A stretch of 64,000 bases of DNA from Candidatus Steffania adelgidicola (GTDB taxonomy: Bacteria > Pseudomonadota > Gammaproteobacteria > Enterobacterales > Enterobacteriaceae): positions 682,001-746,000 of the forward strand of contig NZ_CP045889.1 of NCBI RefSeq assembly GCF_020541225.1, read 5' to 3'. The translations under genes and the position numbers were made by a program. Every line of letters starts with the position of its first letter. The first letter of the stretch is position 1. This document shows positions 11,105-13,404 of the stretch, in pieces. The notes beneath the pieces were generated by a model. That model did not search any database, had not been told where the DNA came from, and saw nothing but the letters and a program-made list of their open reading frames with translations.

Positions 11105-12835
11105 CTACATTCTGTCGACCGTTTCGATACCTAATAAATTTAAACCTTGTTTCAGCGTACGCGCTGTAAGCAATGATAACTGAAGACGGCTTTGTCGTAA
11201 TGCTTTTTTTTCGGTATTCAAAATCGGACAGTTTTCGTAAAAAGCAGAAAACAACACAGCTAGATCATAAAGATAGGAACATAAGACATGCGGAGTACCG
11301 TATCGCGCGACTATAACAATAGCTTCTTCTAATTGTAGAAGCCGAACAGCTAACTTGATTTCTTGTTCCATCTCAAGATGCATATCGCCGATGAGGTGTC
11401 CTTCATCCTCACCGCTACGTTTAAATATTGAGGAAATTCGGGTATAGGCATATTGGATGTAGGGGGCAGTGTTACCTTCAAAACTCAACATATTATCCCA
11501 ATCAAAAATATAATCAGTGTTGCGATTTTTTGATAAGTCGGCATATTTTAGTGCTCCAACACCTACAACCTGCGCTAGATTTTCTAGCTCATCACTGTTC
11601 ATGGTGGGATTTTTTTTAGCAACTAAGCGGCGGGCTCGCCTCATTGCTTCATCGAGCAATGCCGTGAGCTTTACTGTATCACCCTCACGGGTTTTAAATG
11701 GCTTTCCATCTTTATCTAATATCATACCAAACATATGATGCTCAAGTTTGACAGATTCAGGTATATAGTGAATTTTTCTGACAATATTCAAGACCTGCAT
11801 TAAATGTTGATGTTGACGTGAATCGACATAGTAGATAATCCGATCAGCTTTCAGAGTCTCATAGCGGTATTTTACACAGGCGATATCGGTGGTGATATAT
11901 AGATAAGCCCCATCTTTTTTCTGGATGATAATCCCCAGGGGATCACCAGCTTTATTTTTAAATTCATCGAGAAAAATCACAATAGCTCCTTGGCTCTCGA
12001 TAGCTAGTCCTTTCGCCTTGAGATCTGCCACGATGCTAGGTAGCATTGAATTGTACAGACTTTCGCCCATCACATCTGAAAGTGTCAGTGTAACGTTAAG
12101 TCGATCATAGATTTTTTGATTGTGAACCATAGTGATATCTACTAGCTGGCGCCATATGCGTCTACAATACTCATCTCCGTTTTGCAATTGCACTACATAG
12201 TTGCGAGCGCGCTCGGCAAAAGCCGGATCCTCGTGATATTTCTGGTTAGCCAAAAGATAGAATCTTTCTAGACTAGAGAGCTGTATTTCGGATTCCTGGT
12301 GATTGTGTATTGTTTCTAAATAAGCAATTAATATGCCAAATTGTGTTCCCCAATCGCCAATGTGGTTAGCCCGAATGACGTTATGCCCTAAAAACGTCAA
12401 TATGCGTACCGAAGCGTCACCTATAATAGTAGAACGCACATGCCCGACATGCATTTCCTTGGCGACGTTTGGTGAGGAATAATCAACCACGATAGTTTGT
12501 GGCGAAGCGATAGAAACCCCCAGTCGCGGTGAGAACAAGATCTCAGTAAGGTGCTTTTCTAGCCAGCGTAGATCGAGGAAGATATTGATAAAACCTAAAC
12601 CAGCTATGTCAACTCTACGCACGATACCTTTTAAATCAACACGATCGACCACGTCTCTTGCTAGCGTGCGGGGCGGAAGATCGAGGCGCTTAGCAATTGC
12701 TATTAAACCATTGACTTGATAATCCCCGAATTGAGGTTTGACTGATTGTCTCACCTGTGCTTTACAATCAGCAGGAGTACCTAAGATTAACAGTGCATTC
12801 TGGATTTTATCTGAGAGAAGTCTTTGAATATTTAT
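11105..12835 (-). CDS. argS: Arginyl-tRNA synthetase (apparent AUA start)
   Basis: Class I synthetase charging tRNA-Arg. The catalytic motifs are MHVGHVRST (HIGH box) and [15 protein letters not shown] near the KMSKS position; the C terminus LGIETVDRM matches E. coli. The first in-frame standard start is a GTG at 12754, corresponding to V28 of the 577-residue E. coli enzyme. Upstream of it, 27 codons remain open and homologous ([13 protein letters not shown], then TPADC), and the codon aligned with Met1 is ATA at 12835-12833, preceded by AAAGG at 7 bases. From ATA the product is 576 residues. I infer initiation at AUA; a truncated GTG form lacking part of the tRNA-binding N-terminal domain is the alternative. 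Confidence 0.9.
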
Positions 12836-13404
12836 AGGAATACCTTTATCACATGGATGGAAAGTAAAGAAAAATCTCTACACTGCTTATCGATTGAACT
12901 ATTCCGTTTAAATTTGTTAACCGCGATGCTCAGCCAGAAAAATAAAGTATCTTTATATCATAACTCGCTATCAGGATCAGTAGAGTGACTGACAGAGTGT
13001 AACAGTTAACAGAAGAAAAGTGCAGATAATGCCTATAGTAAATAGAAAATGGATATAGAGAGATTATAACAGTTTCCACTACTCCATTTCGATGATTAAA
13101 TTCATCTTAGAGATTCGAATGATTTTTAAGAAAAAGTAGATGGATATGCAAACAGACAGGGTTGAGTTTTAAAATATATAGATTTTAGTATGGATTCTGT
13201 TCTTCTGTTAAAACAAATATCCATAATATCATCTAGCAAAGTTGAGTCCCGATGCTCAATATGGCAATATCCTGGAACTCGAAAGAATCTTCTGCAACAG
13301 CTTATTTGCATTATGATGATTTTTTTATACAAGTCGCTCAATTTTCCGTCATAACAGAATGAGAGCATATAAACTTCTTCAAATTACATACAAACTTGTT
13401 AATT
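12836..13404. other. argS-endA divergent intergenic region
   Basis: About 570 bases with the two divergent promoters. No recognisable gene remnant; the 80-codon open frame at 13126-13368 on the minus strand resembles nothing I know and is low in coding character. Confidence 0.4.

Follow-up and report, generated by a model that had tools for sequence, protein, structure and literature searches.

An apparent AUA start codon in argS of a Sodalis-like symbiont genome

The argS gene of a Sodalis-like genome, probably that of an insect symbiont, has ATA at the place where its relatives have a start codon, and the question raised is where translation of its arginyl-tRNA synthetase (ArgRS) begins. 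The gene lies in the window, the whole stretch of 64,000 nucleotides analysed, which covers positions 682001–746000 of the genome (a single contig of 1,369,541 bases, rated 99.98% complete). The symbiont's own genome is labeled G000, and L and G numbers designate the loci and genomes compared. On the minus strand, the argS frame is open from 12877 to 11105 (590 codons, stop to stop). It is bounded upstream by an in-frame TAG (12878–12880, minus strand), which is followed by 14 open codons and then the ATA. The frame matches the argS profile TIGR00456 over its full length (positions 1–569 of 569) with 622.1 bits against a cut-off of 261.65 and has no internal stop. Profile position 1 falls on residue 17 of the stop-to-stop frame, in which ATA is residue 15. 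Translation of the coding sequence from ATA (11105–12835, minus strand) gives 576 amino acids plus the stop, the length reported in an earlier note on this DNA. A single argS match was found in the symbiont genome. Its nearest relatives are the argS genes of G004 and G026 (77% and 76% identical), and those of the Sodalis-like endosymbiont of Proechinophthirus fluctus and of G153 are 75% identical to it. A pseudogene was considered and ruled out by the intact frame, the single copy and the low pN given below.

The minus strand at 12860–12824 reads CCATCCATGTGATAAAGGTATTCCT-ATA-AATATTCAA. In an alignment with 140 relatives (109 loci, 30 small genomes and L133), the ATA at 12833–12835 (minus strand) takes the conserved argS start-codon position, where 107 relatives have GTG, 17 have ATG and 13 have TTG. 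In the other three (L192, L196 and L197, kept within the 140) the aligned codon is not a start and an ATG is found 1, 3 or 5 codons upstream. None of the 140 has ATA, which bears out the rarity that the earlier note had expected. The 109-locus set comprises 105 GTG, three TTG and one ATG, the 30 small genomes comprise one GTG, 16 ATG, 10 TTG and the three shifted starts, and L133 has GTG. Four weakly matching rows of the tally, among them an incomplete argS of L152, were dropped as not being argS starts. Some loci may be one species present in two collections; 143 of the 144 tallied rows are distinct in the start region. A strict pattern search for a NUG start in its common sequence form was positive for 257 of 392 family genomes and negative for the symbiont, the 135 misses not being equivalent to missing starts, as G002 was missed and has GTG when aligned. 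Downstream of the TAG, the frame contains no ATG, GTG or TTG until residue 28, which is GTG. As would be expected of a gene started at an AU-N codon, the homologous start is AUA and no nearby in-frame NUG can substitute for it.

The codon had been matched to Met1 of E. coli ArgS. The residue is right; the codon in E. coli K-12 is GTG, after GTAAGGTATTCCG, and not ATG. The symbiont ATA is preceded by the leader AAAGGTATTCC. Four Sodalis-like relatives share this leader, L003, L032 and L133 without any change and L004 with a single differing base. Over the 22 bases before the start, the symbiont is identical to L003 at 18 and to L004 and L032 at 17. Because GTG stands behind the identical leader in three Sodalis-like relatives and is also the start in E. 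coli K-12, the ancestral argS start is, on this comparison, GTG and not ATG. Judged by the same alignment, ATA occupies the exact place of that GTG behind the same leader. Small relatives with this kind of leader, L174–L177, have ATG at the aligned codon. The symbiont gene thus resembles argS of E. coli K-12 and other Enterobacterales in identity, leader and N-terminus. In that order argS mostly has a non-AUG start, GTG in 107 of the 140 relatives, and the symbiont differs from the GTG, TTG or ATG of the others in having ATA.

It is probable, given these alignments, that symbiont argS is translated from the AUA at 12835–12833 and that the ancestral GTG became ATA. In such a scheme, fMet-tRNA would initiate at this AUA to give a 576-residue ArgRS. 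The simplest path would be from GTG to ATG, the codon found there in L174–L177, and onward to ATA, under mutation pressure from G to A. The 30S subunit would still be positioned by the inherited ribosome-binding leader together with a start region unusually poor in structure, and the yield would be lower. Use of AUA in the cell, this mutational path and the lower yield are what we infer; provided the base is correct, initiation at AUA would be by far the best reading. A consideration on the other side is that ArgRS is essential, and a weak start should be selected against.

The base itself is the first point to be weighed. As the main rival reading, the deposited ATA could stem from faulty sequencing or assembly, or represent a minority variant, with ATG (or GTG) as the true codon; we regard this as rather unlikely. 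One wrong base would suffice, as L174–L177 carry ATG here, and the oddity was selected out of a long window. However, two bases separate ATA from the GTG of the nearest relatives, and no similar loss was seen in the sampled ortholog pairs described below. Moreover, mutation does yield changes from ATG to ATA in this gene: ATA replaces the conserved Met at five of the 19 argS columns where GC-rich relatives have Met, one of these columns being Met in 138 of the 140 relatives. Because of these five columns, the ATG-to-ATA change is, as far as the alignment goes, common in argS. The conserved Met positions that have ATA are residues 45, 168, 184, 227 and 372 of argS (within 12832–11105, minus strand).

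Initiation at the AUA would also depend on the leader. The Shine-Dalgarno (SD)-like AAAGG (12843–12847, minus strand) is found within the conserved leader 7 bases before ATA, as previously described, a working distance of the kind expected of an AU-N-started gene. The anti-SD duplex at ATA was calculated at −5.1 kcal/mol, compared with a mean of −4.1 in 137 relatives and −4.0 in L003, L004 and L032. This value is much weaker than those at infC (−9.3 kcal/mol) and pcnB (−9.5 kcal/mol) of the same genome, and the modest SD is a point against initiation at AUA. An extended SD that compensates for AUA was not found; the duplex is slightly better than in the nearest relatives and far below infC and pcnB. 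For the 71 bases around ATA, the predicted minimum free energy is only −2.6 kcal/mol. The start region is less folded than that of each of 18 GC-matched relatives, and of 200 shuffled versions 192 are folded as stably as the native sequence or more so. A weak codon would require such openness of its start region, although one gene cannot establish compensation.

The same leader could in principle serve another near-cognate codon, chiefly the ATT at 12841, two codons upstream, or the ATT at 12829, which is codon 3. Both infC and pcnB keep AUU starts in the symbiont genome, and the AAAGG duplex is alike for these two codons and ATA, the three values being −5.1, −5.1 and −5.2 kcal/mol. However, AAAGG would lie 1 and 13 bases from these ATT codons instead of 7, and of the three only ATA stands at the position used for starting by 137 of the 140 relatives. 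Initiation at either ATT is therefore considered improbable.

The nearest in-frame standard codon is the GTG at 12752–12754 (minus strand), residue 28. It is the first standard start in the argS frame, and the codons above it are open and homologous, both as had been observed before. Were it used, ArgRS would lack its first 27 residues, and codons 2–27 (12755–12832, minus strand) would be expected to show release from selection, of which there was no sign. Compared with L003, these codons have a pN of 0.24 and a pS of 0.58; for L032, codons 2–27 alone were usable for pN/pS, as an indel spoils the ungapped comparison beyond them. Divergence at the argS N-terminus outpaces that of the remaining protein, and it does so in the relatives as well. 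For G000, the ratio of N-terminal to remaining divergence had a median of 1.62 over 15 pairs; among those 15 relatives themselves the median was 1.70, calculated from the 101 pairs that differ by more than 10%. Evolution of codons 2–27 at the usual rate argues that they are translated. The GTG is also a poor start by both SD and fold: its anti-SD duplex is −3.2 kcal/mol, and it sits in a local fold of −17.6 kcal/mol that only 10 of 200 shuffles match. Finally, the family profile begins beside ATA, and an N-terminus of about the same length is present in the 140 relatives, although in four small genomes (L188, L191, L192 and L202) its divergence keeps the first BLAST segment from extending into it. 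Initiation at GTG 12754 is thus unlikely from these sequence properties, and we give it very little weight.

Reinitiation deserves even less. The leader is overlapped by an out-of-frame ATG followed directly by TGA (12849–12854, minus strand), and ribosomes terminating at 12854–12849 could conceivably open the argS frame. The ATG is found at the same distance in L003, L004, L032, L133 and L174. However, the codons after it vary between relatives, and pyrimidines predominate in the leader ahead of it, where no SD is evident by eye. A promoter scan upstream of argS was uninformative (two found, 3.6 expected).

Last, AUA might have been reassigned to Met across the genome, which would make ATA an ordinary start. 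Inside genes, ATA codons align with Met in the relatives in 48 of 380 cases, compared with 19 of 895 for ATT, and five of the 12 internal argS ATA codons fall in Met columns. This code change was rejected, as virtually excluded, because ATA aligns mostly with Ile (151) or Val (83 of the 380) while ATG aligns with Met in 449 of 610 cases, because other AT-rich symbionts drift from Met to ATA in a similar manner (L177 likewise at five of the 19 argS columns), and because the pair that reads AUA is present. This pair consists of a tRNA with anticodon CAU at L118:4783-4856, which resembles Ile2 of E. coli, and an open tilS frame. Since both are found, AUA should still mean Ile inside genes.

The preferred reading, initiation at AUA, had been coupled in the earlier note with a possible relaxation of initiation, and the apparatus was inspected. 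The infC gene has an intact IF3 frame with an ATT start behind GGAGG (L112 2029-2031, minus strand), and pcnB has an ATT start behind GAGGTG (L116 16671-16673, minus strand). One initiator tRNA gene was found at L122:8721-8797 (plus strand), identified by its likeness to E. coli metY, with the three anticodon-stem G-C pairs and an unpaired first position. In this tRNA A1 stands opposite A72, so that the 1–72 mismatch is retained; the E. coli initiator tRNA has C1 in the place of A1. The main 16S rRNA ends in GGATCACCTCCTTA, and its anti-SD looks intact. A second 16S rRNA, full-length and decayed, was observed at L204 1501-3027 (minus strand; G000:C1:1310572-1312098). It scores 428 bits compared with 1561.6 for the main copy, to which it is 71.6% identical, its substitutions are mostly G>A and C>T, its GC content is 0.41 compared with 0.52, and its anti-SD is lost. 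Three tRNA matches lie just downstream of it.

Other lost starts were sought in the open frames of the window and 20 further stretches, 464 kb or 34% of G000. A first screen by the distance from the stop to the first NUG listed 27 frames that have 130 codons or more, and a further 90 in which the gap is shorter. The frames were judged by eye against E. coli N-termini, and this screen is soft evidence. Twenty of the 27 frames were scanned with NCBIfam and seven with Pfam, the latter together with two repeats and one of the 90. Besides argS, infC and pcnB, homology above the first NUG was found in one frame, L115:18597-19082. From its second residue onward this frame (plus strand) matches a glutamate synthase domain, of which it covers the end alone, and it is probably a gene fragment. 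Starts were also compared between orthologs, the references being the argS-flanking loci L003–L111 and stretches of G172 (380 kb) and G060 (420 kb), with which many genes remained unpaired. A hit was obtained for 116 symbiont frames, of which 113 passed the filters and 73 formed the non-overlapping longest-frame set; the other 40 were dropped, mostly as antisense or overlapping by eye. A NUG codon lies within 12 codons of the alignment start in 69 of the 73 pairs, not all of which are sure genes. The count of 69 includes pcnB by virtue of a TTG just upstream of its ATT, a kind of case that can escape this test, and infC was unpaired. The remaining four are argS, prfC and pnp, the last two with standard starts further in, and L125:18644-19108, a frame without a Pfam match that is probably antisense. 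Consequently, argS is the sole new loss of a standard start among the 73 sampled ortholog pairs. Because the IF3, initiator tRNA gene and anti-SD look intact, infC and pcnB keep the AUU starts that they have in E. coli, and argS is the only new loss, relaxed initiation is unsupported within the sampled third of the genome.

IF3 disfavours AU-N starts, and infC and pcnB of E. coli start at AUU, the latter start reportedly being described by Binns and Masters in 2002. Symbiont argS is like these genes in having an AU-N start in the same bacterial order. A tentative suggestion, which we hold to be doubtful, is that the move from GTG to AUA has placed argS beside infC and pcnB among the genes in which discrimination by IF3 sets translation, with arginyl-tRNA supply following the level of the initiation factor up and down. 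The sequence anatomy allows argS to be an IF3-sensitive gene. However, unlike infC and pcnB, which have strong SDs in the symbiont, argS has an AUA that is derived and found in this genome alone among those compared. Nor is the kind of start codon conserved across relatives, as would be expected of an IF3-controlled gene of the infC and pcnB type: none of the 140 shares the argS ATA. If true, an IF3-set argS would connect an aminoacyl-tRNA synthetase with the fidelity of initiation in a way that is new, and drift or selection would have fixed this connection in a host-bound cell.

AUA starts are already known in bacteria, and the case of argS is rare and notable for the gene being essential. 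According to a report on S. aureus, AUA starts real genes there, infC and ccpN as marked by ribosome profiling and also citZ, which is a metabolic gene and retains its AUA across strains of the NCTC 8325 lineage (PMC13009471). The same source states that the infC and ccpN starts carry extended SDs, and that in poor medium about 10% of the AUG level was reached by reporters of ccpN, of citZ and of a gene with an AUU start, with up to 30% for the ccpN AUA reporter in rich medium (PMC13009471). By analogy with these reporters, reduced expression of argS from AUA is plausible. Unlike S. aureus infC and ccpN, symbiont argS is known from its sequence alone and has a modest SD; it also differs from the S. 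aureus cases in being an essential synthetase gene of a reduced enterobacterium. Belinky et al. (2017) reconstruct one switch to AUU for 61,358 ancestral AUG starts and one for 5,080 ancestral GUG starts, and the term AUA is absent from their text (PMC5622118). No AUA-started argS was indicated by the titles and abstract openings among the literature matches listed.

Symbiont argS, a housekeeping gene that is essential and present in one copy, appears to have a natural AUA start in a genome where the sampled parts of the initiation apparatus look intact. An annotation restricted to ATG, GTG and TTG would remove 27 residues from this ArgRS. The gene may serve as a test case for how weak a start the essential genes of symbionts tolerate, and for whether a leader with little structure makes up for a weak codon. 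A different condition of argS was observed in G028, a relative with a 5.1 Mb genome rated 49% complete, where the gene appears in four matching segments that include TGA and TAA stop codons (G028:C1:2101068-2102793, minus strand).
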